From NCBI RefSeq assembly GCF_000009905.1, contig NC_006177.1, positions 2,356,001 to 2,420,000 of the forward strand: a stretch of 64,000 nucleotides of DNA. Reading direction: 5' to 3'. The stretch's first letter is position 1; every line of letters starts with the position of its first letter. This stretch comes from Symbiobacterium thermophilum IAM 14863 (GTDB lineage Bacteria > Bacillota > Sulfobacillia > Symbiobacteriales > Symbiobacteriaceae). The translations under genes and the position numbers were made by a program. The notes beneath the pieces are model-generated. The model saw only the letters and a program-made list of their open reading frames with translations. It did no database searches and was not told the DNA's origin. Of the stretch, positions 18,449-61,540 are shown piece after piece.

Positions 18449-20932
18449 TCAGTCCGTGATCGCCCCTCCCTCCGGGCCGCCCGCCTCCACAGGCTTGGAC
18501 GAGAGCACCTCCACCCGGCGGATCACCCGGTTGTTCTCCGGCCGGGTGTCCTCCGGGTAGTCGATCTCGGCGACGATCTCCCAGGTGCCCGCGCTCAGCC
18601 CCGGGATCGTGCCCGTCTTGAGGGTGCAGCAGGGCATCCGGTCGATGGTCACCGTCTGCCATCCCCCGGCCGGCGCCGACCCGCCGGACTCCGGCCGCGC
18701 CCAGAGCCGGAGCGGGACCCGGATCGCGCTGCGACCGAGGTTGTTCTGGTACCCGAGGTAGATCCCCACCTCGAACGGCCGGCCCGCGTCGGCCATCGAC
18801 GGCACGGCCAGGTCCACCACCGACGGGTCGTCGACGACGACCTGCGCAGGCTGCCGGATCGCGTAGGGCACGATGAGCACGTTGTTGGCCAGCCCGCCCT
18901 CGGGGCCGGGCTCCCCCTTCCGCTCAATCAGCTCGGCCACCGCGCCGGCGCAGGTCTTCTCCGCCGGCAGCCCCTGCGCCGCGGCCATCCCCCTAGCCAG
19001 CGCGACCTTGGGGTTGGACGTGTGGGCCGTGCTCAGGGCGTACACGGTGGGCAGATCGATGACCCCGACAATCCAGCCCTCGGCCGGATCCCCCTCGGCC
19101 AGGGTCACCGTGAGCGGCACCGGGTAGGGTTGCTGCGGCCCCAGCTCTCCCGGCAGCGGCACCTCCCCCAGCGGGCGGACCAACTGGCCGTCCGCGTCCG
19201 TCACGAACCAGCGCACGGTCCAGGGACCCGGGCAAAGGGCTGCAAGGGTGCGCGTGGTCATCTCCAGCTGCAGCCGCGGCTCCAGCGCAACCGGCGTGCC
19301 CGGGGTCAGTTCCAGCGGAGCGGGCGCATCCAGCCACCGCAGGTCGTAGCTCTCCCCCGTCCGGAAGGCCACCAGGCGGCCGGAGGTTCCGCCGTCGGTC
19401 TCGAAGTTGACGCCGACCAGCAGGAGGCCGTGGGCGAAGGCGGGGTCGACGCCGACGCCGGAGACCTGGGAGAAGTTGTACGGACCGACGTTTGGCCGCT
19501 CCCCAGCCTTCAGCAGGAACAGCCGGTCGACGGGGGTACGGCTCTCCGGGTGGATCAGCGCCGCCCGGGCGGAGCCGCCGCTGGGGTTGCCGTTGTCCAG
19601 GGAGTAGCTGTAGAAGAAGCCGTTGACGTCGCCGAAGAGGAGCGCCCCGCGGCTGACCAGGGCGAGGGGGGCGGTGTTGAGGGAGGCCATCCGCCCGTCG
19701 AGCCGGTCAGCAGGGCCGAACTTGCGATACCACTTGAGCTCGCCGCTGGAGCCAATGGCCACCACGGCGCCGTCGCTGCCGGTGGGGCCGTCCCGGAGGC
19801 CGGCCCCGGTGTCGCTGTAGTTGCGCAGGGTGACGTAGAGGTGGGTTTCGGGGCCGTCCGGGGTCTGGCGGACCTCCACCGCGGGTTCGGTGTTGGTGAA
19901 CGCGGCCTTGGCGCCGATGAGGGCGGGTAGGGGGATGGAGTAGGTGCCCCAGCCTGTGGGTTCATGACCCTTGTGGAGGGTAGCTCCCCACAAGTGGCCG
20001 CGGGTGTCCATCCAATAGGCGTTGGTGCCGTCTGTGGTGAAGTTGCCCGCGAAGCCTGCGGGGCCGTCGACGGCCCAGACCATGTAGGGCCGGTAGTCGT
20101 TGTTTCGGTCCAAGGCGAGCCGGATTGCCCTTCCACCTTCAAAGCCATCCGCACCAACAACGAAACTTGGATTTAGCCCGTGGACTGGGGCGGATACGGC
20201 CGATGGTGTGATATACCCCCCAAAGCCATCTTCGGCCTGTTTCGTGGTTGGAGCCTGATAGTTCTGCCATCGAACTACGTCGTCTGGTCGGTCCAGTCCC
20301 TGAACCACCCAGACCTTGCCGTGGCTACGGGGACAAAGCGGCCTCCCTACCGGTCGATCCTCCTCTCCTGGGTAATTGGGCCTGTCGGCAACCACCACGA
20401 TATCCCGCCCCCGATCGTGGATGACGAGAGGCGATCCAACGATGGGGCAACCCAGGTCCAGTTCAGCGGGGCGGTACCACCCCTCCCTGGTGTTATAGGC
20501 CCAGAGCCAACCATATCCGGTGCCGAAGTACAGCACCCCCGAGTCCGGGCTGTAGGTCGGACTGGACTGCGGGGCGATTACAGGACCGCCGGGCGGCCGG
20601 TTGAACTCAATCTTGTACGCCTTTACCGGGTCGGTGACCGCGGTGGCGTCCCCCTTCGGCCGGCCCAGTTGATCCAACTCCAGACGCCAGAGGTAGGGAC
20701 CCGCCAAGTGGTAGATGACGCCGTTCACCACCGCTGGCTGTGTGGCGCTCTCGCCCAGCGGCTTCGTCTCCCAGTAGACCGTGATCTCTGTCAGGCCAAG
20801 CGGTTCCGCCACCACCGACATACGCTGCGGCGTACCGCCCTTGGTGATCCAGTCCTCCGCCCCAGCCTGGCCCGTGCTTATCAGCACCAAGAGAAGCGCA
20901 AGTGGCCCTGCGAGCCAGCGTCTCCAGTGCAT
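18449..20932 (-). CDS. Secreted propeller/CARDB-like protein, cassette copy 1
   Basis: An 827-residue secreted protein: signal peptide (LALLLVLISTGQAGA), mature start EDWITKGGTPQRMS, then repeated strands typical of PQQ-like/BamB-like beta-propellers (GVIYHLAGPYLWRLEL, LYFGTGYGWLWAYNT, IVVVADRPNYPG, HGKVWVVQGL, NAYWMDTRGHLWGA, GAVVAIGSSGELKWYRKFG, LLFGDVNGFFYSYSLDNG). Residues ~560-700 are beta-rich, and the C-terminal ~130 residues resemble a CARDB domain (FEVGIYLGYQNNLG, TWEIVAEIDYPEDTRPENNR). Cofactor residues for a real quinoprotein are not evident, so binding or scaffolding is more likely than catalysis. ATG 20932 follows GAGGGGGA and starts 13 bases after the conserved end of the stalk gene. 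Confidence 0.82.
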   Translation of the reverse strand: MHWRRWLAGPLALLLVLISTGQAGAEDWITKGGTPQRMSVVAEPLGLTEITVYWETKPLGESATQPAVVNGVIYHLAGPYLWRLELDQLGRPKGDATAVTDPVKAYKIEFNRPPGGPVIAPQSSPTYSPDSGVLYFGTGYGWLWAYNTREGWYRPAELDLGCPIVGSPLVIHDRGRDIVVVADRPNYPGEEDRPVGRPLCPRSHGKVWVVQGLDRPDDVVRWQNYQAPTTKQAEDGFGGYITPSAVSAPVHGLNPSFVVGADGFEGGRAIRLALDRNNDYRPYMVWAVDGPAGFAGNFTTDGTNAYWMDTRGHLWGATLHKGHEPTGWGTYSIPLPALIGAKAAFTNTEPAVEVRQTPDGPETHLYVTLRNYSDTGAGLRDGPTGSDGAVVAIGSSGELKWYRKFGPADRLDGRMASLNTAPLALVSRGALLFGDVNGFFYSYSLDNGNPSGGSARAALIHPESRTPVDRLFLLKAGERPNVGPYNFSQVSGVGVDPAFAHGLLLVGVNFETDGGTSGRLVAFRTGESYDLRWLDAPAPLELTPGTPVALEPRLQLEMTTRTLAALCPGPWTVRWFVTDADGQLVRPLGEVPLPGELGPQQPYPVPLTVTLAEGDPAEGWIVGVIDLPTVYALSTAHTSNPKVALARGMAAAQGLPAEKTCAGAVAELIERKGEPGPEGGLANNVLIVPYAIRQPAQVVVDDPSVVDLAVPSMADAGRPFEVGIYLGYQNNLGRSAIRVPLRLWARPESGGSAPAGGWQTVTIDRMPCCTLKTGTIPGLSAGTWEIVAEIDYPEDTRPENNRVIRRVEVLSSKPVEAGGPEGGAITD

Positions 20933-20945
20933 CTGTCGATCCCCC

Positions 20946-22134
20946 TCAGTACCGAACAGCCCGGTTTTCTAAGTACCAGCTCGGGTACTCGTACAGGGGG
21001 AAGAACGGCGTGAAGATGTGGACGGTACGTTCCCGACATCGTTCCGTCGTCCTGGCGGAAAATGGGCTGCGCACCCACCCAGTAGACCTTCGCCCCCATC
21101 TGCTCGGCGATGAAGCGGACCGGCACCATGGTCCGGTCGTTGCGAATCACCGGCGGGGCGTCCAGCGGCACCTCCTGCCCGTCCACCACCGCGACGGGAT
21201 GGTCGATGGTCAGCACGATCGTGCGCTGCGGGGTGCTTACCGTGCGCTCTTCGAAATAGAATCGGTGACCGTTCGGCAGGTACTCTTCATAATCAAACAG
21301 GTCAGTATAATCGTATCCTTCAGTCGGGATGACCTTCATGACGTCGCGGGTGACGGCCGGGAAGTGGATCGTCACCCGCCGGCCGGTTTCGTCCCACAAG
21401 ACCTGGCCGCCCATCATCTCGCTGACGAATCGAATCGGAACCCGCACCCGGTTAACCGTAGTGTCGAGGTAAGCCGGAGCATCAAACCGCTTCCACGCGT
21501 TGCCTTGATTGAGGAAGACATAGATGTAATCGGGGTTCCCGTTACTGCTGCTGCCGTCATCCCGTCCGAGTCCGGGATGCGACTTGTCCACCCAGTAGAG
21601 GTACTCTGCTCGCCGTCCTTCTGCCAGCGCTTCTTCCTCACTGAGCCCCCGGGCTTCGGTAATGGAGTTGATCGGCTCATACCTACATGGTTTCCAGTAC
21701 AGGCGCGACCAACCGAACGAACGCCCGTAGACCTGCCGGATCAACTGGGTATCGGGTTTCGGGTAGGCGTAGACGTAGATCGTCCTCCCGCACGGCACCC
21801 AGTCCTCTTCCCAGTACCAGGGATACTCCTGGGTCCAGGCAGGCAGCGGGTCCCACACCCACCACTCGAAGCCATCGAACTCATCCGCCCGCTCCTGCAG
21901 GACCTGATCGATCTCTGCCCGCATCCGCTCGGACATCTGCGCCGGAATGGGCGGCGGCGACCACCCATCCGGCCAGCCGGGACCGGGGTCGTAGTTCTGG
22001 GCCGGGTACTCCGCCACTTCCGGCTTCTGTTCTGTCTCGCCCACCGCTGTTGGGCTGGCGAGCAGCATGATGGTGAGCACCGCCCACGTCCACGCGATGG
22101 CGCGGCGCCTGAGTTGCCCCATCATCCTCCTCAT
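20946..22134 (-). pseudogene. Secreted stalk-domain protein, cassette copy 1 (3' frameshift)
   Basis: As in its paralogues: signal peptide, Pro-rich segment (YDPGPGWPDGWSPPP), an aromatic region (WWVWDPLPAWTQEYPWYW), KSHPGLGRDDG and two copper-amine-oxidase-type stalk motifs (VNRVRVPIRFVSEMMGGQVL; VIRNDRTMVPVRFIAEQMGA). After MSGTY the frame shifts by one base near 21029: the annotated frame runs on as RPHLHAVLPP to 20881, inside propeller gene 1, whereas a -1 base correction restores the shared ending VHIFTPFFPLYEYPSWYLEN...RAVRY and a TGA at 20946-20948. Only the last ~25 residues change. ATG 22134 is used; Met codons at 22125/22122 are alternatives. Could be an assembly error. Confidence 0.75.
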
Positions 22135-22151
22135 CGACCCCCACGTACCGT

Positions 22152-22199
22152 TTTCACTTAACCAATACGAAAACCCCTGAGCCGAGGTTTGCTCAGGGG
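22152..22199 (-). promoter_or_regulatory. Structured leader of stalk gene 1
   Basis: Read on the minus strand, CCCCTGAGC-AAACCTCG-GCTCAGGGG is followed by TTTTCGTATTGGTTA about 20 bases before the start codon. The stem plus T tract looks like an intrinsic terminator placed in front of the gene, as in an attenuator; it could also terminate an upstream transcript. The same element precedes copies 3 and 4. Confidence 0.6.
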
Positions 22200-24386: not shown

Positions 24387-26870
24387 TCAGTCCGTGATGG
24401 CGCCGCCTTCCGCGCCGCCTCTCTGGCCCCCCTGCGAACTGTGCACCTCCACCCGTCGAATGAGGCGGTTGTTTTCCGGGCGGGTGTCATCCGGGTAGTC
24501 GATCTCGGCGATGATGTCCCACGTGCCCGCACTCAGGCCAGGGATCGTGCCGGGCTTCAGGGTGCAGCACGGCAACCGGCCGATGGTCACCGCCTGCCAG
24601 CCGCCTGCCGGCGGTGACCCGCCCGCAGCAGGCCGCGCCCAGAGCCGGAGCGGGACCCGGATCTCGGTGCGGCCCAGGTTGTTCTGGTAGCCCAGGTAGA
24701 TGCCCACTTCGAACGGCCGGCCTGCCTCTACGATCTCGGGAACCGCCAGTTCCACCACCGATGGGTCATCCACGATTGCTTGCGCCGGCTGCTGACTGGT
24801 GTAGGGCACCATCAGCACGTTATTGGCCAGGCCGCCCTCCGGCCCGGGCTCGCCCTCCCGCTCGACCACCTCCGCCACCGCCCCTGCGCAGCTCTTTTCA
24901 GCCGTCAGCCCCATCTTCTCCGCTATGGCCCGCGCGACAACCAGCCTGGGGTTGGCCGTGTGCGGCGCGCTGAGCGCGTAGACGGAGGGCAGGTCGATGA
25001 CGCCCACGATCTGGCCCTCGGCGGGATCGCTCCCGGTCAGGGTGACCGTCACCGGCACGGGGTAGGGCTGCTGCGGGGCCAGGTCTCCGGGCAGAGGCGT
25101 CGCCCCGAGGGGGCGGATGGGCTGGCCGCTCTGGTCCGTGAGGTACCACTGGACGGACAGCGGGCCCGGGCAGAGCGCTGAGAGCGTCCGCTCGGTCATC
25201 TCCAGCTGAAGCCGGGGCTGCATGGCGGCCGGCTTGCCCGGCTGAAGCTTCATGGGCTCCGGCGCATCCAGCCACAGCAGGTCGTAGGTCTCCCCAGCCC
25301 GGTAGGCCACCAGCCGGCCGGAGGTTCCGCCGGCGTCTTCGTAGTTGACGCCCACGAGCATGAGGCCGTTGGCGAAGGCGGGGTCCACGCCCACGCCGGA
25401 AACCTGGGAGAAATTGTAGGGGCCCGTGTTGGGCTGCTCGTTGTTCTTGAGCAGGAACAGCCGGTCCGTGGGCGCTTTCCCTTCCGGAGGGATGACCGTC
25501 GGCCGGCCGTCGCCGCCGGCCGGGTTGCCGGTGTCCAGCGCGTAGCTGTAGATGTAGCCGTTCACGTCGCCGAAAATGAGCGCCGCTCGGCTGACCAGGA
25601 CCAGCGGTGCGGTGTTGAGGGAGGCCTTGCGACCGTTCAGCCGGTCCGCGGGGCCGAACTTGCGGTACCACTTCAGTTCGCCGCCGGGACCGAGCGCCAC
25701 GACGGCGCCGTCGGCGCCGGTGGGTCCGTCGCGCAGCCCCACACCGGTGTCGGTGTAGTTGCGGAGGGTGACGTAGAGGTGCGTTTCGGGGCCGTTGGGG
25801 GTCTGGCGGATCTCGATGGCGGGCTCGGTGTTGGTGAAGGCGTTCCTGGCGCCGATGAGGGTGGGCAGGGAGATGGAGTAGCTGGACCAGCCTTCGGGTT
25901 CGCTACCCCGCTCCAGATGGGCACCCCACAATCGGCCGCCTGTATCTAACCAGTACGCGTTGGTACCGTCGGAAGTAAAGTTACCGGCAAAGCCAGAAGA
26001 TCCGTCTACCGTCCAGACACGGTACGGGCGATAATTGTTTTCCCGGTCGAGGGCCAGACGCAACGCCCGCCCACCCTCGAAGCCGTCCGTGCCGAGGACG
26101 AAGCTTGGGTTTTCCCCATGCGGCACTGCTAACACCGCAGATGGCGTGATGAAGCCGCCGAACCCTTCTTCAACCTCCTTGCTCGTCGCTGCTTGATATG
26201 CCTGTCGGTGAACTGACCCGTTAAGCTGATCCAACCCCTGTACGATCCAGACTTTCCCGTGGTTACGGGGGCAGAGGGGCCGTCCTTTCGGCCGGTTCTC
26301 CTCTCCGGGGTAGTTTGGGCGATCAGCCACCACCACAATATCCCTCCCCCGGTCGTGGATGACCAACGGGGATCCCACGATGGGGCAGCCCAGTTCCAGT
26401 TCGGCTGGCCGAGCCCATCCTTCTGTTGTGTGATACGCCCAGAGCCAACCGTAGCCAGTACCAAAGTAGAGAACGCCAGTCTCCGGGCTGTAACTAGGGC
26501 TGGACTGGGGGGCGATAGATGGGCCGGCGGGTGCCCTGTTAAATGGGATTGGAAGTTTGGAAACCGGCTCCTGGATCGGAGAAGCATGCGCGTAAGGTGG
26601 GTGGACCTCGTCCAGTTTCAACTTCCAGAGGTAGTCACCTGCCAGGTGGTATATGACCCCGTCGACCAACACTGGTTGCGTGGCGCTCTCGCCCAACGGC
26701 TGCGTCTCCCAATACGGCGTTAACTCGATCAAACCATACGGATTGATTTCGGTTGACATGCGTTGCGGTGAACCGCCCTTGGTAATCCAATCGCCCGCTG
26801 TCGCCCTGGAACCGGTGGCTACAACGAGCACACAGCCAAGCACAGCCGCTACCCACCGCGGCCACCTCAT
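24387..26870 (-). CDS. Secreted propeller/CARDB-like protein, cassette copy 2
   Basis: An intact 827-residue paralogue of copy 1 with the same architecture: signal peptide (VAAVLGCVLVVATGSRATAG), DWITKGGSPQRMSTE, propeller strands (LYFGTGYGWLWAYHT, LIFGDVNGYIYSYALDTG, VALGPGGELKWYRKFG) and the CARDB-like C-terminus with the Cys pair LPCCTLKPGTIPGL. It is more diverged from copies 1 and 3 along its whole length and lacks their shared 3' flank. It starts 14 bases after the stop of stalk gene 2, so the two are one transcription unit. The 3' end is ~40 bases from IS copy 1. Confidence 0.85.
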   Translation of the reverse strand: MRWPRWVAAVLGCVLVVATGSRATAGDWITKGGSPQRMSTEINPYGLIELTPYWETQPLGESATQPVLVDGVIYHLAGDYLWKLKLDEVHPPYAHASPIQEPVSKLPIPFNRAPAGPSIAPQSSPSYSPETGVLYFGTGYGWLWAYHTTEGWARPAELELGCPIVGSPLVIHDRGRDIVVVADRPNYPGEENRPKGRPLCPRNHGKVWIVQGLDQLNGSVHRQAYQAATSKEVEEGFGGFITPSAVLAVPHGENPSFVLGTDGFEGGRALRLALDRENNYRPYRVWTVDGSSGFAGNFTSDGTNAYWLDTGGRLWGAHLERGSEPEGWSSYSISLPTLIGARNAFTNTEPAIEIRQTPNGPETHLYVTLRNYTDTGVGLRDGPTGADGAVVALGPGGELKWYRKFGPADRLNGRKASLNTAPLVLVSRAALIFGDVNGYIYSYALDTGNPAGGDGRPTVIPPEGKAPTDRLFLLKNNEQPNTGPYNFSQVSGVGVDPAFANGLMLVGVNYEDAGGTSGRLVAYRAGETYDLLWLDAPEPMKLQPGKPAAMQPRLQLEMTERTLSALCPGPLSVQWYLTDQSGQPIRPLGATPLPGDLAPQQPYPVPVTVTLTGSDPAEGQIVGVIDLPSVYALSAPHTANPRLVVARAIAEKMGLTAEKSCAGAVAEVVEREGEPGPEGGLANNVLMVPYTSQQPAQAIVDDPSVVELAVPEIVEAGRPFEVGIYLGYQNNLGRTEIRVPLRLWARPAAGGSPPAGGWQAVTIGRLPCCTLKPGTIPGLSAGTWDIIAEIDYPDDTRPENNRLIRRVEVHSSQGGQRGGAEGGAITD

Positions 26871-26884
26871 ACGCCATTCACCCC

Positions 26885-28069
26885 TTAGTACCGAACCGCT
26901 CGAGTCTCCAGGTACCAGCTCGGGTACTCGAAAAGGGGAAAGAATGGCGTGAAAATGTGAACCTGATAGGTACCTGACATGCTGCCGTCATCACGCCGGA
27001 AAATAGGTTCAGCTCCGACCCAGTAGACCTTCGCTCCCATCTGTTCAGCGATGAAACGGACAGGCACCATCGTCCGATCGTTCCGAATTACGGGTGGTGC
27101 ATCCAGGGGTATTTCCATTCCATCCACGATTGCCGCCGGATGATCAACGGTCAGCACAATAGTCCGTTCTGAGGTGCTGATAGTCTGCTTTTCAAGAAGG
27201 AAGCGATGACCATTAGGAAGGTACGCCTCGGGATCGAATAGGTCGGGATAGTCGTACCCAGGGGCCGGGACAGCTTTCACCACCTCGCGCGTGACAGCGG
27301 GGAAATAGATTGTCACTTGCCGTTTCGCTTGGTCCCACGAAACTTCGGCCCCCATCATCTCGCTAATGAACCTGATTGGTACGCGCACTCTGTTGACAGT
27401 GGTGTCCAGGTAAGCAGGCGTGTCAAACCGCTTCGAGGCATCGCCCTGGTTGAAGTAGACGAAGACGTGGTCTGGACTGCCGTTGCTGGCCCTACCGTCA
27501 TCTCGCCCCAGTCCCGGATGCGACTTGTCCATCCAGTACTCGTATTCGATGCCCCTTTCTTCAGCCAGTTTTTCTTCCTCACTGAGCTCGCGCGTCTCAG
27601 TTATCGACTGGATGGGCTCATACCGACACGGTTTCAGGTAGAGTCGCGACCAGCCAAAGGATCGACCAAACACCCTTGTGATCAGCTGTGTATCCGGGAC
27701 CGGATAAGCAAACACGTACAACGTGGTTCCACAACCCATCTTGTCTTCCCGCCAGAACCAAGGATACTCGTTCGTCCACGCAGGCAGCGGATCCCACACC
27801 CACCAGTCGTACCTGTCATACATGTCCGGGTGCTCCCTGAGGATCCGCTCCACCTCAGCCCGCATCTGTTCAGACATCCCCTCCGGAGGCGGCGGTGGCG
27901 TCCACCCTTCCGGCCAGCCCGGACCGGGCTCGTAGTTTTCAGCCGGATACTCCGCAACCTCCGGCTTCATCTCCTCCGCGGCCCCCGTCCTCACAGGCGT
28001 GTGGAGCAGCAGGGCCGCGAGTACCAAGCAGGCCAACTGCCTGGCGCGGCGTGCGTATCCCCTCTGCAT
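26885..28069 (-). CDS. Secreted stalk-domain protein, cassette copy 2
   Basis: An intact 394-residue member of the family and a good reference copy. Signal peptide (LACLVLAALLLHTPVRTGA), Pro-rich EPGPGWPEGWTPPPPPEGM, WWVWDPLPAWTNEYPWFW, two Cys (KMGCGTT and LKPCRYEP) that may form a disulfide, KSHPGLGRDDG, HVFVYFNQGDASKRFDTPAY, then stalk motif 1 (VRVPIRFISEMMGAEVSWD) and stalk motif 2 (IVDGMEIPLDAPPVIRNDR...VPVRFIAEQMGAKVYW), ending SWYLETRAVRY. ATG 28069 follows GGGGGAGAG. Stalk domains of this type are common on surface and cell-wall proteins of Bacillota; no enzyme active site is seen. Confidence 0.85.
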   Translation of the reverse strand: MQRGYARRARQLACLVLAALLLHTPVRTGAAEEMKPEVAEYPAENYEPGPGWPEGWTPPPPPEGMSEQMRAEVERILREHPDMYDRYDWWVWDPLPAWTNEYPWFWREDKMGCGTTLYVFAYPVPDTQLITRVFGRSFGWSRLYLKPCRYEPIQSITETRELSEEEKLAEERGIEYEYWMDKSHPGLGRDDGRASNGSPDHVFVYFNQGDASKRFDTPAYLDTTVNRVRVPIRFISEMMGAEVSWDQAKRQVTIYFPAVTREVVKAVPAPGYDYPDLFDPEAYLPNGHRFLLEKQTISTSERTIVLTVDHPAAIVDGMEIPLDAPPVIRNDRTMVPVRFIAEQMGAKVYWVGAEPIFRRDDGSMSGTYQVHIFTPFFPLFEYPSWYLETRAVRY

Positions 28070-28164
28070 GTCCCTTGACTCTCCCCCACAAACTGGTTCT
28101 CACATAACCAATACGGATTCCCCTCCGCACAGGTTCTCACACAGCCCCACACGCTCAGCGATGA

Positions 28165-44602: not shown

Positions 44603-46238
44603 ATCGAGTAGGAGGGGGCGGCTAACCCCCGTCCTCTCACACCACCGGACATGCGGGTCCGCATCCGGCGGTTCGCCAGGATTGACGAGTCGCTTCATAG
44701 CATTCGGTCAGGCTTATCAGCCCCTGGGCACGCCAGTAGGCGTTGCCCAGGGCGCTGTTTAGTGGGCCACCTGCCATTCGCCACGGGCCTTTGCGGCTGT
44801 TGGCGAGTTGGTAGACTACCCATTCGGGCAAACCGAGGGCGCGTAACTCCCGAAAGCGCGTGCGTACACGCTTCCACTGCCTCCATACGCATGCTCGCAG
44901 CCGACGCTTCAGCCATCCTTCGAGTCTTTCAAAGGCTGACCTGGCATCGGAGAGCGCATAGTACCCAACCCAGCCCCGCAAGTAGGCATTCAGGCACCGG
45001 ATTCGGTCCTCCATGCTCTGGCTGCGGTTGCGGTCCGTCAGCGTGCGGAGCTTGTCCTTCACGCGTTTCAGGCTCTTCGGGGCCAGCCGGATGCGCACTC
45101 CCCGGTGCTTGTAGAAGCTAAACCCGAGGAACTGCCGCTTCCACGGCCGGTCCACTGCGCTCTTCTCCTCGTTGACCTTCAGCCGTAACCGCTCCTGCAG
45201 GAAGTGGCGCACGCTCCTGTAGACCCGTTCTCCCGCCCGCTTGCTGCGGACGTAGATGTTGCAGTCATCGGCGTACCGGACGAAGTGGTGGCCACGGCGC
45301 TCCAGCTCCTTGTCGAGGTCATCCAGCAGGATGTTCGCCAGCAGCGGACTCAGCGGACCGCCCTGCGGCGTCCCTTCCTCCGTCGCCACGACCACCCCGT
45401 TCAGCATGACCCCGGCCTGTAAGTACCGCCGGATCAGCCGCAGCACACGCTTATCCGTTACCCGCCGCGCCACGCGGGCCATCAGCACGTCGTGGTTGAC
45501 CCGGTCGAAGAACTTCTCCAGGTCCATGTCCACGACCCAGTCGTACCCTTCCTCCACGTACTGACGTGCCTTCCTGACCGCATCATGACCCCGCCGCCCC
45601 GGCCGAAAGCCTGGGCGCCTCCGTTCCGCTCCACCCGTTTCAGGGCGGCCAGCATGTTCTCCCTGGCCACCACCTGCTCCATCAGGTTGCTGTGCTCCCC
45701 GCGGGGTGACGTTCCGTCTTGTGCCGGCTGCCCACTCCGCCCTCTCGCCGTCCCTTGCGGCTTCACCGCTACCTCCGGCGAGCAGGCCCCGTGCGGGGTC
45801 TTCTGCGTTTGTCGCGGGCTGCTCGAACGCAACGGGTTCACCCCTCTCCTGACGTTCGGCCCTTCCCGGTCGGGGCGTCCCCCTGCCCGTACTATGGCCT
45901 TTGCTGACTTCTGCCGGTTCAGCTGCGTCTCCCGACGCAGGTTACCAGCGTTGCTGGCGTTCCCGGCAGATCTCCCCGGGTAAGAACGCTGACCTTCACC
46001 CCGCACCCGCCCCATCTACTGCACCGCCCTTTGGCAGCCTCGGGTTTTGCTGTGGTTCGCCAGCTCACCCAGGCGGCACAGCCTCGTATGAGGTTCGTGT
46101 TCCTCGGGTCGTGGCTTTGCCTCCGGCTTCCTCCAGATTCCGCCTCGCGACGGACACCCTTGCCTTTGGCTAACGGGCTGGTGCTGCCTCGCCCGCAGCG
46201 GACTTTCACCGCCAAGTCAGCGCCCATGCCGGGCGCAC
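44603..46238 (-). mobile_element. Group IIC intron
   Basis: On the minus strand the 5' end is GTGCGCCCGGCATGGGCGC (46238 downward), typical of bacterial group II introns. Domain V near 44640-44675 reads CGCCGGATGCGGACCCGCAT followed by GTCCGGTGG, with the CGC triad of class C, then domain VI and an end at CTCCTACTCGAT (44603). The 5' flank is the terminator hairpin of propeller gene 3 (GGGCCC...), nine bases away, exactly the site class C introns choose. The encoded protein is damaged. About 1.64 kb, short for the class because of an internal deletion. Confidence 0.85.
44637..45682 (-). pseudogene. Intron-encoded reverse transcriptase/maturase, internally deleted and frameshifted
   Basis: The C-terminal part is well kept: EGYDWVVDMDLEKFFDRVNH, GTPQGGPLSPLLANILLDDL, the catalytic HFVRYADDCNIYV (YADD), RLKVNEEKSAVDRPWKRQFL and the maturase region (WVGYYALSDARSAFERLEGW). 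The N-terminus (LMEQVVARENMLAALKRVERNGG) then jumps straight to AFGRGG, which is the end of the RT segment normally reading S-YGFRPGR-SAHDA. About 70-80 residues (RT blocks 0-2) are missing, and a frameshift follows before HDAVRKARQYVEEG. The protein cannot be functional; the intron would need an enzyme in trans. Confidence 0.8.
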
Positions 46239-46371: not shown

Positions 46372-48858
46372 TCAGTCCGTGATCGCCCCTCCCTCCGGGC
46401 CGCCCGCCTCCACTGGCTTGGACGAGAGCACCTCCACCCGGCGGATCACGCGGTTGTTCTCCGGCCGGGTGTCCTCGGGGTAGTCGATCTCGGCGACGAT
46501 CTCCCAGGTGCCCGCGCTCAGCCCCGGGATCGTGCCCGTCTTGAGGGTGCAGCAGGGCACCCGGTCGATGGTCACCGCCTGCCATCCCCCAGCCGGCGCC
46601 GACCCGCCGGACTCCGGCCGCGCCCAGAGCCGGAGCGGCACCTGGATCGCGCTGCGACCGAGGTTGTTCTGGTAGCCGAGGTAGATCCCCACCTCGAATG
46701 GCCTGCCCGCGTCAGCCATCGACGGAACGGCCAGGTCCACCACCGACGGGTCGTCGACGACGACCTGTGCAGGCTGCCGGATCGTGTAGGGCACGATGAG
46801 CACGTTGTTGGCCAGCCCGCCCTCGGGGCCGGGCTCCCCCTCCCGCTCAATCAGCTCGGCCACCGCGCCGGCGCAGGTCTTCTCCGCCGGCAGCCCCTGC
46901 GCCGCGGCCATCCCCCTAGCCAGCGCGACCTTGGGGTTGGACGTGTGGGCCGTGCTCAGGGCGTACACGGTGGGCAGATCGATGACCCCGACAATCCAGC
47001 CCTCGGCCGGATCCCCCTCGGCCAGGGTCACCGTGAGCGGCACCGGGTAGGGTTGCTGCGGCCCCAGCTCTCCCGGCAGCGGCACCTCCCCCAGCGGGCG
47101 GACCAACTGGCCGTCCGCGTCCGTCACGAACCAGCGCACGGTCCAGGGACCCGGGCAAAGGGCTGCAAGGGTGCGCGTGGTCATCTCCAGCTGCAGCCGC
47201 GGCTCCAGCGCAACCGGCGTGCCCGGGGTCAGTTCCAGCGGAGCGGGCGCATCCAGCCACCGCAGGTCGTAGCTCTCCCCCGTCCGGAAGGCCACCAGGC
47301 GGCCGGAGGTTCCGCCGTCGGTCTCGAAGTTGACGCCGACCAGCAGGAGGCCGTGGGCGAAGGCGGGGTCGACGCCGACGCCGGAGACCTGGGAGAAGTT
47401 GTACGGACCGACGTTTGGCCGCTCCCCAGCCTTCAGCAGGAACAGCCGGTCGACGGGGGTACGGCTCTCCGGGTGGATCAGCGCCGCCCGGGCGGAGCCG
47501 CCGCTGGGGTTGCCGTTGTCCAGGGAGTAGCTGTAGAAGAAGCCGTTGACGTCGCCGAAGAGAAGCGCCCCGCGGCTGCCCAGGACCAGCGGGGCGGTGT
47601 TGAGGGAGGCCATCCTCCCGTCGAGCCGCTCCGCGGGGCCGAACTTGCGATACCACTTGAGCTCGCCGCTGGGGCCAATGGCCACCACGGCGCCGTCGCT
47701 GCCGGTGGGGCCGTCCCGGAGGCCGACCCCGGTGTCGCTGTAGTTGCGCAGGGTGACGTAGAGGTGGGTTTCGGGGCCGTCCGGGGTCTGGCGAACCTCC
47801 ACCGCGGGTTCGGTGTTGGTGAACGCGGCCTTGGCGCCGATGAGGGCGGGCAGGGGGATGGAATAGGTGCCCCAGCTTTCGGGTTCACTACCGCTGATAA
47901 GCGAGGCGCCCCACAGGTGCCCGCGAGTATCCAGCCAGTACGTATTTGTACCGTCTGAGGTAAAGTTGCCGGCGAACCCTGCGGGGCCGTCAACTGTCCA
48001 GAGGAGGTACGGGCGGTAGTTGTCATTCCGGTCCAGAGCGAGCCGAACCGCCCGACCACCCTCGAAACCGTCCGTTCCAATCACAAAGCTGGGATTTCCA
48101 TCGTGCGGTGGGGCAGTTACCGCCGACGGGGTGATGAAACCGCCGAAGCCCCCAGCTACGTGCTTGGTGGTTGCAGCTTCGTAGACCCTCCAGCTTGGAT
48201 GTCCATCTTGACGATCCAGACCTTGCACCACCCAAACCTTTCCATGCGAACGAGGGCAGAGCGGGCGACCTGCGGGCCGATCTTCCTCCCCTGGGTAGTT
48301 GGGGCGATCCGCGACAACCACGATGTCACGCCCAGAATCATGTATGACCAGGGGAGATCCAACAATAGGACACCCCAGTTCCAACTCCAACGGACGAAAC
48401 CAGCCCTCCACGGTATGGTAGGCCCAGACCCAGCCGTATCCAGTACCGAAGTAGAGCACCTGTGTTTGTGGGCTGTAAGAGGGACTCGACTGGGGTGCAA
48501 TCAACGGACCACCCGGCGCCCGGTTGAATGGAACGCCCAGTCTTGTAACCGGATCCTCAACTGCTAACGCCGTTGCCACCGGCGGCAGAAGACCATCCAA
48601 ATTTATCTTCCACAGGTACTCCCCCGCCAGGTGGTATACCGCACCATCGACCAACACCGGTTGCGCTGCGCTCTCGCCCAGTTCCTGCGTTTCCCAGTGC
48701 GGCACAATCCCTATGAGACCGTGGGGATCCTCCACCACCGACATACGTTGCGGAGTCCCACCTTTCGTGATCCAGTCGCCGGCCAGAGCTGATGGCGCCG
48801 TGACGGACGTGAGCCATACAGCAAGTGCAGTAGCCAGCCACCTTGACCACCGCCGCAT
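46372..48858 (-). CDS. Secreted propeller/CARDB-like protein, cassette copy 3
   Basis: An intact 828-residue paralogue. From about residue 370 to the end it is nearly identical to copy 1 at protein and DNA level, including 3' flank and terminator, while the first ~330 residues differ markedly (LIGIVPHWETQELGESAAQP; LYFGTGYGWVWAYHT; LSVTAPPHDGNPSFVIGTD-like segment). That is a mosaic pattern. Signal peptide ALAVWLTSVTAPSALAG; CARDB-like C-terminus with VPCCTLKTGTIPGL. Its RBS (GGGGGATT) survived, but IS copy 2 now lies between it and its stalk partner, so it may lack its former promoter. Confidence 0.85.
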   Translation of the reverse strand: MRRWSRWLATALAVWLTSVTAPSALAGDWITKGGTPQRMSVVEDPHGLIGIVPHWETQELGESAAQPVLVDGAVYHLAGEYLWKINLDGLLPPVATALAVEDPVTRLGVPFNRAPGGPLIAPQSSPSYSPQTQVLYFGTGYGWVWAYHTVEGWFRPLELELGCPIVGSPLVIHDSGRDIVVVADRPNYPGEEDRPAGRPLCPRSHGKVWVVQGLDRQDGHPSWRVYEAATTKHVAGGFGGFITPSAVTAPPHDGNPSFVIGTDGFEGGRAVRLALDRNDNYRPYLLWTVDGPAGFAGNFTSDGTNTYWLDTRGHLWGASLISGSEPESWGTYSIPLPALIGAKAAFTNTEPAVEVRQTPDGPETHLYVTLRNYSDTGVGLRDGPTGSDGAVVAIGPSGELKWYRKFGPAERLDGRMASLNTAPLVLGSRGALLFGDVNGFFYSYSLDNGNPSGGSARAALIHPESRTPVDRLFLLKAGERPNVGPYNFSQVSGVGVDPAFAHGLLLVGVNFETDGGTSGRLVAFRTGESYDLRWLDAPAPLELTPGTPVALEPRLQLEMTTRTLAALCPGPWTVRWFVTDADGQLVRPLGEVPLPGELGPQQPYPVPLTVTLAEGDPAEGWIVGVIDLPTVYALSTAHTSNPKVALARGMAAAQGLPAEKTCAGAVAELIEREGEPGPEGGLANNVLIVPYTIRQPAQVVVDDPSVVDLAVPSMADAGRPFEVGIYLGYQNNLGRSAIQVPLRLWARPESGGSAPAGGWQAVTIDRVPCCTLKTGTIPGLSAGTWEIVAEIDYPEDTRPENNRVIRRVEVLSSKPVEAGGPEGGAITD

Positions 48859-48875
48859 GACCTGAATCCCCCTAG

Positions 48876-50610
48876 CTCAAGTTTCGCGTGAATAACCCGC
48901 ACTCCGTACAATGGAAACCCATTGAAAAAGCATCAGTCTGAACCAATGATACATGGTGGGATTTGCCCCTCTTAAACCACCATGTGGAGGTTCGACTGAT
49001 GCAGTCTCATGGTACGACGCCCGAAGTCACTGCGCAAGCCATCAAATGCACCACCCGGCATGGTTTTCTTGTCGCTCTTGGTTGGGTAGCGCAAAGGCTG
49101 AACCTGGTTGACGTGTTGAACCGGCACCTGCGGATCAATCAGAAGACCTACACCCATACGCCGGTCGACAAGGTAGTCGAGGCGTTGGTTGCCATTCTCG
49201 GCAACTGCCGCTACATGAAGGACCTGAACTTCGATCCCGAGCCGCTGGTCGCCGACCCTGCCGTAGCTCAAGCCTGGGGGCAGGAACGCTTTGCTCACTT
49301 CTCCACCGTCTGTGCGACCTTCAGCAAACTAACGGAGGAAAACGTTCAACAACTTTCCGATGCACTGGCGGAGATCCAGGCTCCCCTGCTTCAGCAGGAG
49401 GTTGCGGCGGTGGCTGGCCCAGACCGGTCCGGAATGGTCATCGTGGACATCGACCTCACCGGCCAGAAGGTCCGGGGAGAGACCAGGCAGTACACCGGTA
49501 CCGACTTTGGCTACATCCAGGGGCAACTGGCCCGCGGCTATCAGATCGCAGCCGCCTTCCTCACTGGAAAGCAGCAGCGCTTTGCCATCGACGGCCTTCT
49601 CAAGTCCGGTAAGGCCAACAGCCGCTCTGGCGCCTGCCTGCTCGAACTGATCCCCAGGGTGGAAGCCCGGATCGGCCGCCCCCTGCGGCGGGTGGAATGG
49701 GTTGAAGCATGCCTGGCTCAGCAGAAGGTGCGGGTCCGGCAGTTGCATCAGGCATTACAGACGGTATCGGGCAAGGGCAGCGCCCGGCGGAAACAGAAAC
49801 TGCAGTCCGAGTTACAGGAGACGGTCCAGGTCATCCGTGAACTGAACCATCGGCTCCGGCAGTACAGGCAGGACAATCAGACGAACCCGGCTCCCCTCCG
49901 GATCGTGCTGCGAGCCGACAGCGCCTTTGGCACGCCGGAGGTGATCCAGCGGCTGCTGGAGCTGGGATACGAGTTCACCATCAAGTCCTACTCCGGAAGC
50001 AATCCCGCCTACAAGCGCCTCTTCGACGCCGTGCCGGCGGAGGGCTGGGTTGAAGTCGAGAAGAACCGGTTTGCCTCCGAAGCCGTTGCTGTGCCTGGCC
50101 CAACGCTGCTCGCACCGTATCCGGTGCGGCTTGTCGCCATGCGCCGCTGGAATACGGATGGCCGGGAAGTCCGCAGCGTGATCCTGACCACGCTCCAAAC
50201 CGAGGCGCTAACCATGACAGAGGTCGTGAAACTCTACCACGGACGCCAGACCATCGAAGCCGGATTCCAGGAGTGGAAGGGAACGTTTCACTTTGGTGCA
50301 CCCCGGCTGCGCAAGTACGAGGCCAACGCCGCCTTTACGCAGCTCGTCCTGTTTGCCTTCAACCTGGTGCGTTGGGCCTGGCGCTATCTGAGCACCTCCT
50401 CGTCCAAACTGGCCGAGGCCAAGAGTCGACTCCTGGTACGGGTAGCGGCCCGGTGCCGGGCAACCATACGGTGTATTGGTGACACGCTGCGGCTGGTGTT
50501 CAGCCGGGGTACTCCCCTGGCTGGAGCGGAGATTACCCTGAACCGGGCCGTTTCTTACCAATGCACTTTTTCAACACCACGAATGTCGAGTTGTTCGCGT
50601 GAAACTTGAG
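48876..50610 (+). mobile_element. Insertion sequence, copy 2 (CTAG target)
   Basis: 1735 bp, flanked by CTAG at 48872-48875 and 50611-50614. Other cassettes have a single short TAG/TCA-containing junction here, so CTAG is a true 4-bp target duplication. It separates stalk gene 3 from propeller gene 3 and reads against both. Almost identical to copy 3. Confidence 0.92.
48999..50609 (+). CDS. DDE transposase, IS copy 2
   Basis: 536 residues, intact, with the same DDE motifs as copy 1 (VIVDIDLTGQKVRGE, LRADSAFGTPEVIQR, YHGRQTIEAGFQEWKG). It differs from copy 3 at only a few residues (for example Cys versus Ser in AIKCTTRHG, Glu/Asp in DPEPLV, Asn/Asp in RRWNTDG) and from copy 1 at many more. 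ATG 48999 follows GGAGG within the leader hairpin; the stop lies in the right inverted repeat. Confidence 0.92.
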   Translation: MQSHGTTPEVTAQAIKCTTRHGFLVALGWVAQRLNLVDVLNRHLRINQKTYTHTPVDKVVEALVAILGNCRYMKDLNFDPEPLVADPAVAQAWGQERFAHFSTVCATFSKLTEENVQQLSDALAEIQAPLLQQEVAAVAGPDRSGMVIVDIDLTGQKVRGETRQYTGTDFGYIQGQLARGYQIAAAFLTGKQQRFAIDGLLKSGKANSRSGACLLELIPRVEARIGRPLRRVEWVEACLAQQKVRVRQLHQALQTVSGKGSARRKQKLQSELQETVQVIRELNHRLRQYRQDNQTNPAPLRIVLRADSAFGTPEVIQRLLELGYEFTIKSYSGSNPAYKRLFDAVPAEGWVEVEKNRFASEAVAVPGPTLLAPYPVRLVAMRRWNTDGREVRSVILTTLQTEALTMTEVVKLYHGRQTIEAGFQEWKGTFHFGAPRLRKYEANAAFTQLVLFAFNLVRWAWRYLSTSSSKLAEAKSRLLVRVAARCRATIRCIGDTLRLVFSRGTPLAGAEITLNRAVSYQCTFSTPRMSSCSRET

Positions 50611-51795
50611 CTAGTACCGCACCGCACGGTTCTCCAGGTACCAACTCGGGTATTCGTACAGTGGGAACGTCGGCGTGAAGATGTGGACCTGATAGGTACC
50701 CGACATGGTGCCGTCATCAAGCCGGAATATGGGCTCCTTCCCCACCCAGTACACTTTGGCGCCCATCTGCTCGGCTACAAACCGAACGGGTACCATCGTC
50801 CGGTCGTTCCGGATCACAGGGGGAGCATCCAGCCGGACTTCACGGCCATCCACAATCGCAACGGGATGGTCGATGGTCAAGGTAATGGTACGCTCCGGTA
50901 TCCTCACCACACGTTGCTCGAAGTAGAAGCGGTAACCGTTCGGCAAGTACTCCTCAGCATCAAAAAGATCCGGATAGTCATATCCCTCAGCCGGAACTAC
51001 TTTCATCACTTCACGCGTCGTTGCAGGAAAATGGATGGTCACCCTCCGGCCGGTCTCATCCCACGTGACCTCGGCGCCCATCATCTCGCTGACAAAACGG
51101 ATGGGCACCCTCACCCGGTTAACAGTGGTATCCAAGTACGCAGGAGTGTCAAATCGCTTGGATGCGTCCCCTTGGTTGAGATACACATAGATGTGGTCAG
51201 GACTTCCGTTCCGATCCCTCCCATCATCCCTTCCCAGTCCCGGATGCGACTTGTCTACCCAGTACAGATACTCGGCACGACGCCCCTCAGCCAACTTCTC
51301 CTCTTCACTCATTTCGAGAGCTTCGACAATAAACTGGACCGGCTCGTATCGGCAGGGTTCGAGGTACAGGCGCGTCCAGCCATACGACCGTCCAAAGACC
51401 CTGGTGATCAGTTGGGTGTCCGGCACCGGGTACGCGTAGACGTGAAGCGTAGTACCACAACCCATCCAATCCTCTCGCCAGAACCAAGGATACTCCTTTG
51501 TCCATTCAGGTAAGGGTTCCCACACCCACCAGGTGTATCGCTCGTACAGATCCGGGCGCTCGCGGAGCGCCTGTTCAACCCTCAACCGCATCTGTTCCGA
51601 CATGCCCTCAGGCGGCGGTGGCGGTGACCACCCCTCCGGCCACCCAGGGCCAGGCTCGTAGTTCTCAGGAGGATAGTCCACTACCACAGGCTTCGGCTCG
51701 TCCGTGGCCGCTACCCCAACAACGGGCTGAAACAGTAAGACTGTAAGAACCAGCAAGGTGAGCCAACCGACGCGCCTCGTCTGTTCCCCCCACAT
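50611..51795 (-). CDS. Secreted stalk-domain protein, cassette copy 3
   Basis: An intact 394-residue member: signal peptide (LTLLVLTVLLFQPVVGVAA), EPGPGWPEGWSPPPPPEGM, WWVWEPLPEWTKEYPWFW, KSHPGLGRDDG, HIYVYLNQGDASKRFDTPAY, stalk motif 1 VRVPIRFVSEMMGAEVTWDE and stalk motif 2 VRLDAPPVIRNDRTMVPVRF, ending SWYLENRAVRY. The stop TAG is part of the CTAG duplicated by IS copy 2, so the insertion left the protein unchanged. ATG 51795 follows GGGAGTGGAGG. Confidence 0.85.
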   Translation of the reverse strand: MWGEQTRRVGWLTLLVLTVLLFQPVVGVAATDEPKPVVVDYPPENYEPGPGWPEGWSPPPPPEGMSEQMRLRVEQALRERPDLYERYTWWVWEPLPEWTKEYPWFWREDWMGCGTTLHVYAYPVPDTQLITRVFGRSYGWTRLYLEPCRYEPVQFIVEALEMSEEEKLAEGRRAEYLYWVDKSHPGLGRDDGRDRNGSPDHIYVYLNQGDASKRFDTPAYLDTTVNRVRVPIRFVSEMMGAEVTWDETGRRVTIHFPATTREVMKVVPAEGYDYPDLFDAEEYLPNGYRFYFEQRVVRIPERTITLTIDHPVAIVDGREVRLDAPPVIRNDRTMVPVRFVAEQMGAKVYWVGKEPIFRLDDGTMSGTYQVHIFTPTFPLYEYPSWYLENRAVRY

Positions 51796-51828: not shown

Positions 51829-51869
51829 TAGCCAATACGAAAACCCCTGAGCGAAGGTTTGCTCAGCGG
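51829..51869 (-). promoter_or_regulatory. Structured leader of stalk gene 3
   Basis: Minus strand: CCGCTGAGC-AAACCTTC-GCTCAGGGG then TTTTCGTATTGGCTAGGTGA. Stem with one mismatch, same loop and same downstream box as copies 1 and 4. Confidence 0.55.
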
Positions 51870-52078: not shown

Positions 52079-52990
52079 ATGTCCCGTCAAGTGGTGTAAA
52101 TCGGGTTCCCGCGAGTAGCTGCCCTAGTCAGCACTGAGGGTCAGGAAGTCCGTACCGCTGACACTCTGGTTGCTGGTGTACAGCTTGGCCATGGACGCTT
52201 GACTGAAGTACCGCCGCGGGGCTGCCGTCCATTCGTCCTGCTGTTCGATCAGGACGGCGCCGGCCAGGCGGATGACGGCCTCTCGATTGGGGAAGATGCC
52301 GACCACGTCCGTTCGACGGCCAATCTCTCGGTTCAGCCGTTCCAGCGGGTTGGTGGAGTGCAGCTGTCGCCAGTGCTCAGTCGGAAAGGCCATGTAGGCA
52401 AGGATGTCGTCTTCGGCTTCTTCGAGCAGCTGAGCCGCACGAGGGAACTGCGGTCGCAGATTGTCTGCGACAACGGCCAGTTGACGCCGTGCCGCTTGCT
52501 GGTCCGGCTGTGCGAAGATCGTCCTGACGGCAGCCGCCACCATGGACTGCCAGTGCTTCGGCACATAACTGAGCAGGTTGCGCATGAAGTGCACCCGGCA
52601 CCGCTGCCAGCTGGCGCCGCTGAGTACGGTGCGGATGGCCTCCTGTAGGCCGACATGGCTGTCACTGATGGCCAGAAGGACGCCTTTGAGACCGCGTGCA
52701 ACCAGTTGACGCAGAAATGCCGTCCAGAAGGCCCCGTCTTCGCTGGGGCCGACGTCCAGTCCCAGGATCTCCCGGTCGCCGTCCTCCCGTACCCCCACAG
52801 CCACGACCAGGGCCATACTGGAGACCCTGCCGTTTTCCCGTACTTTGACGTACTTCGCATCCAGCCAGACGTAGGGGTAACGGCCCTCCAACGGACGATT
52901 GCGGAAAGCCTGAACCACCTCATCCAACTCGGCGCATAGCCGCGAAACCTGGCTCTTGCTCACACCGGTCATTCCCAAGGCTTGTACTAG

Positions 52991-54725
52991 CTCAAGTTTC
53001 GCGTGAATAACCCGCACTCCGTACAATGGAAACCCATTGAAAAAGCATCAGTCTGAACCAATGATACATGGTGGGATTTGCCCCTCTTAAACCACCATGT
53101 GGAGGTTCGACTGATGCAGTCTCATGGTACGACGCCCGAAGTCACTGCGCAAGCCATCAAATCCACCACCCGGCATGGTTTTCTTGTCGCTCTTGGTTGG
53201 GTAGCGCAAAGGCTGAACCTGGTTGACGTGTTGAACCGGCACCTGCGGATCAATCAGAAGACCTACACCCATACGCCGGTCGACAAGGTAGTCGAGGCGT
53301 TGGTTGCCATTCTCGGCAACTGCCGCTACATGAAGGACCTGAACTTCGATCCCGATCCGCTGGTCGCCGACCCTGCCGTAGCTCAAGCCTGGGGGCAGGA
53401 ACGCTTTGCTCACTTCTCCACCGTCTGTGCGACCTTCAGCAAACTAACGGAGGAAAACGTTCAACAACTTTCCGATGCACTGGCGGAGATCCAGGCTCCC
53501 CTGCTTCAGCAGGAGGTTGCGGCGGTGGCTGGCCCAGACCGGTCCGGAATGGTCATCGTGGACATCGACCTCACCGGCCAGAAGGTCCGGGGAGAGACCA
53601 GGCAGTACACCGGTACCGACTTTGGCTACATCCAGGGGCAACTGGCCCGCGGCTATCAGATCGCAGCCGCCTTCCTCACTGGAAAGCAGCAGCGCTTTGC
53701 CATCGACGGCCTTCTCAAGTCCGGTAAGGCCAACAGCCGCTCTGGCGCCTGCCTGCTCGAACTGATCCCCAGGGTGGAAGCCCGGATCGGCCGCCCCCTG
53801 CGGCGGGTGGAATGGGTTGAAGCATGCCTGGCTCAGCAGAAGGTGCGGGTCCGGCAGTTGCATCAGGCATTACAGACGGTATCGGGCAAGGGCAGCGCCC
53901 GGCGGAAACAGAAACTGCAGTCCGAGTTACAGGAGACGGTCCAGGTCATCCGTGAACTGAACCATCGGCTCCGGCAGTACAGGCAGGACAATCAGACGAA
54001 CCCGGCTCCCCTCCGGATCGTGCTGCGAGCCGACAGCGCCTTTGGCACGCCGGAGGTGATCCAGCGGCTGCTGGAGCTGGGATACGAGTTCACCATCAAG
54101 TCCTACTCCGGAAGCAATCCCGCCTACAAGCGCCTCTTCGACGCCGTGCCGGCGGAGGGCTGGGTTGAAGTCGAGAAGAACCGGTTTGCCTCCGAAGCCG
54201 TTGCTGTGCCTGGCCCAACGCTGCTCGCACCGTATCCGGTGCGGCTTGTCGCCATGCGCCGCTGGGATACGGATGGCCGGGAAGTCCGCAGCGTGATCCT
54301 GACCACGCTCCAAACCGAGGCGCTAACCATGACAGAGGTCGTGAAACTCTACCACGGACGCCAGACCATCGAAGCCGGATTCCAGGAGTGGAAGGGAACG
54401 TTTCACTTTGGTGCACCCCGGCTGCGCAAGTACGAGGCCAACGCCGCCTTTACGCAGCTCGTCCTGTTTGCCTTCAACCTGGTGCGTTGGGCCTGGCGCT
54501 ATCTGAGCACCTCCTCGTCCAAACTGGCCGAGGCCAAGAGTCGACTCCTGGTACGGGTAGCGGCCCGGTGCCGGGCAACCATACGGTGTATTGGTGACAC
54601 GCTGCGGCTGGTGTTCAGCCGGGGTACTCCCCTGGCTGGAGCGGAGATTACCCTGAACCGGGCCGTTTCTTACCAATGCACTTTTTCAACACCACGAATG
54701 TCGAGTTGTTCGCGTGAAACTTGAG
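52991..54725 (+). mobile_element. Insertion sequence, copy 3, nested in IS256-type element
   Basis: 1735 bp flanked by CTAG at 52987-52990 and 54726-54729. Removing it with one CTAG restores the IS256 reading frame, proving the target and duplication. Confidence 0.94.
53114..54724 (+). CDS. DDE transposase, IS copy 3
   Basis: 536 residues, intact, all DDE motifs present. Nearly identical to copy 2 at DNA level, so these two come from very recent transposition or gene conversion. ATG 53114 sits in the same sequestering hairpin; stop in the right inverted repeat. Confidence 0.92.
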   Translation: MQSHGTTPEVTAQAIKSTTRHGFLVALGWVAQRLNLVDVLNRHLRINQKTYTHTPVDKVVEALVAILGNCRYMKDLNFDPDPLVADPAVAQAWGQERFAHFSTVCATFSKLTEENVQQLSDALAEIQAPLLQQEVAAVAGPDRSGMVIVDIDLTGQKVRGETRQYTGTDFGYIQGQLARGYQIAAAFLTGKQQRFAIDGLLKSGKANSRSGACLLELIPRVEARIGRPLRRVEWVEACLAQQKVRVRQLHQALQTVSGKGSARRKQKLQSELQETVQVIRELNHRLRQYRQDNQTNPAPLRIVLRADSAFGTPEVIQRLLELGYEFTIKSYSGSNPAYKRLFDAVPAEGWVEVEKNRFASEAVAVPGPTLLAPYPVRLVAMRRWDTDGREVRSVILTTLQTEALTMTEVVKLYHGRQTIEAGFQEWKGTFHFGAPRLRKYEANAAFTQLVLFAFNLVRWAWRYLSTSSSKLAEAKSRLLVRVAARCRATIRCIGDTLRLVFSRGTPLAGAEITLNRAVSYQCTFSTPRMSSCSRET

Positions 54726-58264: not shown

Positions 58265-58279
58265 AATTCCAGCTCCCCC

Positions 58280-59464: not shown

Positions 59465-59496
59465 CGGCTCCCACTCCCCCATGTTGTTCGTTCTCC

Positions 59497-59539
59497 CATA
59501 ACCAATACGAAAACCCCCGGGCAGAGGTTTGCCCGGGGG
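59497..59539 (-). promoter_or_regulatory. Structured leader of stalk gene 4
   Basis: Minus strand: CCCCCGGGC-AAACCTCT-GCCCGGGGG then TTTTCGTATTGGTTATGGGA. The stem is perfect although two base pairs differ from copy 1 (T-A to C-G and A-T to G-C), i.e. compensatory changes. Confidence 0.65.
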
Positions 59540-61380: not shown

Positions 61381-61540
61381 GGTGATGGCATCGTGCACAG
61401 CCGCCGACGGCACCGCCCTCAGTGGTGGCATCGCCCACGGTCGCCGGCAGCACCGCACTCAGTGGTGGCATCGCCCACGGTCGCCGACAGCACCGCACTC
61501 AGTGGTGGCATCGCCTCCGTCGCCGATGGCACGGCCGTCA
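61381..61540. repeat. Four 40-bp tandem repeats at the 3' end of propeller gene 5
   Basis: The unit agtggtggcatcgcccacgg plus tcgccgacagcaccgcactc starts at 61421, 61461 and 61501, with a degenerate unit at 61381. The last unit runs into the stop codon of propeller gene 5 (TCA at 61538-61540), replacing the terminator and flank found behind copies 1, 3 and 4. A 40-bp period cannot be coding. Confidence 0.85.

Follow-up and report, generated by a model that had tools for sequence, protein, structure and literature searches.

The window analysed here, a stretch of 64,000 nucleotides of Symbiobacterium thermophilum DNA, corresponds to G000:C1:2356001-2420000 in a single-contig genome of 3,566,135 bases. 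It encodes four paralogous proteins with a Cu_amine_oxidN1 domain (PF07833), the stalk genes A to D, which sit in a repeated module together with a downstream gene of ~755-840 amino acids. In window coordinates, these features are located as follows.

20881-22134, minus strand: stalk gene copy A, ORF of 417 aa with Cu_amine_oxidN1 (translation probably from 22125, after AGGAGG)
26885-28069, minus strand: stalk gene copy B, 394 aa
50611-51795, minus strand: stalk gene copy C, 394 aa
58280-59482, minus strand: stalk gene copy D, ORF of 400 aa (by alignment with the other copies, it starts at 59464)
18449-22134, 24387-28069, 46372-51795 and 55743-59482, minus strand: repeated stalk modules
61538-63913: a further stretch of the repeated stalk module

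The sequence-only reading of this DNA counted four copies. The genome holds six, all within ~85 kb, because two more paralogues (E and F) lie just outside the window. The stalk paralogues are 67-84% identical to copy B at the protein level. For the downstream gene of the module, the copy at 18449-20932 was searched against Pfam and two copies against NCBIfam, in each case without a match. The window also contains group II intron RNA domains (44603-46154, minus strand), a Mutator-type transposase of 300 aa (52124-53026) and two 548-aa ORFs (48963-50609 and 53078-54724). The latter two share the same nested-ORF pattern and the same promoter-like sites upstream, and probably represent a mobile element that is present twice.

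Upstream of each stalk gene we located the following elements, all on the minus strand.

22174-22199: copy A, terminator-like hairpin with a 9 bp stem and the 8-nt loop AAACCTCG
22170-22173: copy A, T-run
22185-22190: copy A, putative -35 AAACCT, inside the hairpin loop
22164-22169: copy A, putative -10 CGTATT
~22157: copy A, predicted transcription start (inferred)
28131-28136: copy B, putative -35 GAACCT, retained despite loss of the hairpin and T-run
28110-28115: copy B, putative -10 CGTATT, spacing unchanged
51844-51869: copy C, hairpin with 8 of 9 pairs (one mismatched)
51855-51860: copy C, putative -35 AAACCT in the loop
51834-51839: copy C, putative -10 CGTATT
59514-59539: copy D, hairpin with 10 pairs
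59525-59530: copy D, putative -35 AAACCT in the loop
59504-59509: copy D, putative -10 CGTATT

A search with CGTATTGGTTA, allowing up to one mismatch, returned 6 matches in the window against 0.08 expected, and four of the six are the stalk copies. The arrangement of stem, loop and box that had been described before these genes is thus real and conserved, except that copy C contains one mismatched pair and carries the box TTTTCGTATTGGCTA, which differs by one base. Two stem changes that had been noted between copies A and D (T-A to C-G and A-T to G-C) are indeed both fully compensated. On the other hand, copy B does not keep only the box, as had been stated: it also retains AACCT, 15 nt before CGTA, like the other copies.

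Two congeneric genomes, G001 and G002, contributed two complete and two contig-truncated homologues (G001:C22, G001:C51, G002:C215 and G002:C118), which brings the number of element copies to 10, six in S. thermophilum and four in the congeners. Scanning further contigs for orthologues yielded three loci, one of them apparently identical to G002:C215, and nothing new of use. On a gapless 38-column alignment of the 10 copies (9 distinct) we examined stem pairing in comparison with 500 shuffles. Stem cells are paired in 81.5% of cases versus 72.1% in the shuffles, and cells in which both sides have changed number 9 versus 3.4; none of the 500 shuffles reached either value. When the partner is displaced by 1-3 columns, pairing falls to 26-56%. 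Other measures gave no signal: the number of pairs altered on both sides (four) does not exceed the shuffles (60/500 reach it), neither do further pair types (388/500), and the covariation term computed by RNAalifold on a longer alignment is unfavourable (+0.77). A second helix suggested by RNAalifold, between TTTTCGTA and the GTGAGAA stretch, was rejected because of this unfavourable term and because 2 of the 10 pairs are invariant. Since 8 of the 10 copies retain stem and T-run with compensated changes, the earlier proposal that an RNA structure is under selection is supported, and selection appears to act on the pairing of the stem.

Which transcript this structure belongs to is a separate question, because compensated base changes show a hairpin and not its membership in the message of the downstream gene. 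The hairpin could lie inside the leader of the stalk mRNA and act there as an attenuator or as a protein-bound cis-regulatory RNA with signal-controlled read-through. Retention of the pairing through compensated changes and conservation of the loop sequence are in line with this idea. Furthermore, a downstream TTTTC..GAGAA could form an alternative helix, and the loop ACC could pair with GGU of the box, a candidate pseudoknot recognized by eye.

The distribution of conserved positions points elsewhere. AACCT-N15-CGTA(A/T)TGG occurs at fixed spacing in all 10 copies, including the two without a hairpin. AACCT has a mean column entropy of 0.00 bits and CGTAWTGG one of 0.09 bits, compared to 0.84 bits in the 5' arm and 0.62 bits in the 3' arm. 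Relative to the majority, copy B deviates at 5/9 positions in the 5' arm, 2/9 in the 3' arm and 3/4 in the T-run, but at 0/5 positions in AACCT and 0/8 in CGTATTGG. For G001:C51 the corresponding values are 4/9, 4/9 and 1/4 for the arms and T-run, 0/5 for AACCT and 1/8 for the CGTATTGG box. These two copies have lost the stem, with longest runs of 4 and 3 pairs, respectively, and retain motif and spacing. A shift of the stem by one register in F and G002:C215 leaves the spacing of AACCT-N15-CGTA unaltered. Both the stem losses and the shifted stems indicate that the constraint tracks the bipartite motif and not the stem, an observation that speaks against a role of the hairpin within a stalk mRNA leader.

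ECF sigma factors generally recognize AAC at -35 and CGT at -10 (PMC4153023), an AAC motif in the -35 region is described for many of them (PMC8791391), and the consensus for SigW is given as TGAAACN16,17CGTA (PMC2375139). The stalk elements share these traits: AAC is present in the putative -35 of 10/10 copies as part of the invariant AACCT, CGT is present in the putative -10 of 10/10 copies as part of CGTA, and the distance from AAC to CGTA is N17 in 10/10 copies, which fits the ~16-17 nt of ECF-type promoters. From this layout we infer an ECF-type sigma promoter with -35 RAACC and -10 CGTATW. GTGAGAA beyond the -10 is conserved as well, which is explained only in part. We also observed that GT(A/G)(A/G) stands 5 nt past the -10, close to where transcription is expected to begin, at 9/15 Symbiobacterium N17 sites; this GTRR at offset 5 is less frequent in genus g3 (genome G004, 7/38).

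The same motif also occurs far from stalk genes. In the three Symbiobacterium genomes (G000, which is S. thermophilum, G001 and G002), GAACCTN15CGTAWT with up to one mismatch gave 15, 22 and 23 matches, respectively, and its reversed control gave 5, 1 and 3. We inspected 12 of these 60 matches, chosen because they looked orthologous between genomes or promoter-like. The motif was found upstream of YmdB, MarR-1 and a TPR-like gene in each of the three genomes and upstream of MarR-2 in two of them, and none of these inspected sites combines a hairpin with a T-run. The twelfth inspected match (G000, near 2467298) is not followed by a clear gene start. The following are promoter-like sites with GAAC-N17-CGTATW.

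G000:C1, 379523: upstream of MarR
G000:C1, 1305119: upstream of MarR
G000:C1, 1922221: upstream of YmdB
G000:C1, 3166123: upstream of TPR-like gene
G002:C207:4871: upstream of MoxR-like gene

The MoxR-type ATPase ORF, named from its sequence alone, begins 104 nt downstream of the N17 match in G002. In S. thermophilum, the other genes with a stalk domain lack the motif at all four examinable loci (two more were not examinable), and therefore the bipartite motif is not a general property of stalk genes.

The spacing preference extends to the family level. For this comparison we counted exact matches to GAAC-N15..19-CGTATW in five family genomes (the three above plus G003 and G004 from two other genera), leaving out the stalk sites. 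The 119 matches distribute over N15 to N19 as 9, 15, 64, 14 and 17 (p = 4e-16 against one fifth); since L207, L209, L195/L210 and some of the N17 matches in G004 are probably located within coding sequence, the 64 are not a count of promoters. N17 accounts for 38/60 matches in G004 and 11/21 in G003, neither of which had been used to define the motif. For G001 alone, the preference is not significant (4/13, p = 0.25). Inspection of 39 of the 60 matches in G004 showed the motif before homologues of MarR-1 (65% identity over 91 residues) and of the TPR-like protein (43% over 106), and also before a different gene with a stalk domain. In addition, an ECF sigma gene of G004 is preceded by GAACTTTTTCC..CGTATA with N16 spacing (G004:C21:22496-22521), and could possibly encode an autoregulated sigma factor of the class that reads this motif, autoregulation from their own motif being usual for ECF sigma factors. 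Its best match among 19 region-4 loci of S. thermophilum is 36% identical, and none of these 19 loci contains GAAC-N17-CGTAT in the region examined. Three order-level genomes provided 15 matches to the exact pattern without preference for N17 (5/15, counted by hand). At three of these 15 sites, one with N17 and two with N18 spacing, a Cu_amine_oxidN1 gene of another type follows immediately; two of the three are homologous. No matching upstream arm was seen by eye at these three sites, and in two of them the spacer ends with GGGGGTTT(T/A) as in the Symbiobacterium copies. Since the first in-frame ATG follows 2 nt past the -10, the true start codon at these order-level sites would be further downstream, if they are promoters. 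Taken over the family, the motif likely marks an alternative-sigma regulon, the targets of which would include stalk-domain, MarR, YmdB and TPR-like genes.

What then is the hairpin for? With a rule that demands a stem plus TTT overlapping the motif, 8/10 stalk copies score positive as opposed to 0/53 other N17 sites, a result that has to be read with the reservation that this rule was tightened after the results of a first one had been seen. That first terminator rule missed copy C and G001:C22 and produced one false positive (L248). A permissive stem search was discarded, as it could not tell stalk sites from others: copy B reached a score of 7, and 3/53 non-stalk sites reached 9. The stem form CCCCNG..CNGGGGTTTT has 20 matches in the genus, four of them at stalk genes, compared to 0 for the reversed control, and 11 of the 16 non-stalk matches lie 1-92 nt past the end of a co-directional ORF. 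In stem form, the stalk hairpins thus resemble the local intrinsic terminators. The hairpins of A, D, E and G001:C22 follow a co-directional ORF at 13-33 nt. In D the distance from the upstream stop codon is 13 nt (ORF end: 59553), as it is in E, and the hairpin of C lies ~254 nt after a transposase gene, also co-directional. Of the copies that have lost the hairpin, B is preceded by a divergent Sulf_transp gene and G001:C51 by another long inverted repeat just upstream.

Three copies with a hairpin have no adjacent co-directional gene upstream, and are not explained by a pure terminator role: the neighbours of F (a transposase) and G002:C215 (Sulf_transp) are apparently divergent, and in front of G002:C118, which already has a separate terminator 366 nt upstream, an opposite-strand ORF intervenes. 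A related possibility is that the hairpin is merely the terminator of the upstream unit, that common descent of the paralogues has kept the box, and that no promoter exists. The ordinary stem form and the 67-84% identity among the stalk proteins would agree with this, but AACCT and CGTA are invariant while the arms change freely, and the bipartite motif is also found at non-homologous genes and in other genera. We consider this explanation very unlikely. The inverted repeat might instead be a DNA element, either the operator of a dimeric regulator or a cruciform around the -35 that controls access of the sigma factor. It is centred on the -35 and is kept in the three copies with an apparently divergent nearest upstream gene. 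However, arms that vary and stay complementary are typical of RNA pairing and not of an operator, which would also not need the T-run found in all 8 intact copies; this function, too, appears highly improbable.

Based on these comparisons, each element is probably an intrinsic terminator fused to an alternative-sigma promoter of the ECF type. The observations behind this assignment are a motif of fixed spacing that also stands hairpin-free before unrelated genes, and a stem that shows compensated changes and has the form common to the terminators of the genus. The -35 RAACCT would be contained in the terminator loop, the 3' arm together with the T-run would constitute the promoter spacer, and the -10 CGTATT would follow directly. 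Polymerase arriving from upstream would transcribe the hairpin and halt at the T-run, and polymerase carrying the alternative sigma factor would initiate ~7 nt beyond the -10, giving a stalk mRNA whose leader of ~30-35 nt does not include the hairpin. An ECF-type promoter would be expected to start transcription 6-8 nt past the -10 in dependence on its sigma factor. Because the predicted start lies ~7 nt after the -10, the hairpin would fall outside of the stalk mRNA. A start downstream of the hairpin, which the sequence-only reading had itself named as evidence against its proposal, is therefore what the promoter layout predicts.

The proposal in question, attenuation or a cis-regulatory leader, is not supported: AACCT and CGTATTGG form a bipartite motif of fixed spacing in 10/10 copies, and this motif also stands hairpin-free before unrelated genes. 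Moreover, with an upstream stop codon only 13 nt away in D and E, the promoter of such a leader would fall inside the upstream gene. An Rfam scan of the window at gathering thresholds returned only group II intron families, and hence no described RNA family for the element. The covarying hairpin as a leader RNA is a plausible reading that is probably wrong, and we judge it quite unlikely. Instead, the hairpin most likely stops upstream transcription within the same 38 bp that would start the stalk gene, a compact design in which a single stretch serves both ends. A more far-reaching idea, which we offer as rather doubtful, is that this fusion is a regulatory device. Upstream transcription would terminate on, and transiently occupy, the sigma-binding DNA, so that stalk genes would be expressed only while neighbouring genes are silent; the self-insulating cassette of terminator and promoter would allow the family to duplicate into foreign operons without read-through, as part of an uncharacterised family-wide sigma regulon.

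Terminator-type attenuators and the expression platforms of riboswitches place a terminator-like hairpin upstream of the ribosome-binding site, as is the case here. The stalk hairpin differs in that it lies upstream of the predicted transcription start, and we found no aptamer or upstream leader. With intrinsic (rho-independent) terminators, the stalk hairpins share a GC-rich stem, a short loop, a T-run and frequently a position soon after an upstream stop codon, and their CCCC..GGGG-TTTT form is the same as that of intrinsic terminators elsewhere in the genus. In contrast to these, the T-run of the stalk copies comprises only 3-4 residues, the -10 follows at once, and the loop is constrained to AACCT. 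A limited survey of the literature revealed no overlapping terminator-promoter design that matches the stalk element, and no published description of a GAAC-N17-CGTATW regulon. The closest relatives of the promoter part are SigW-type ECF promoters (TGAAAC-N16,17-CGTA; PMC2375139), to which the stalk element is alike in AAC at -35, CGTA at -10 and the 17 nt between them. Unlike these promoters, the stalk element has G or A before AAC and is joined to a terminator hairpin, and in Symbiobacterium GTRR often follows 5 nt past the -10.
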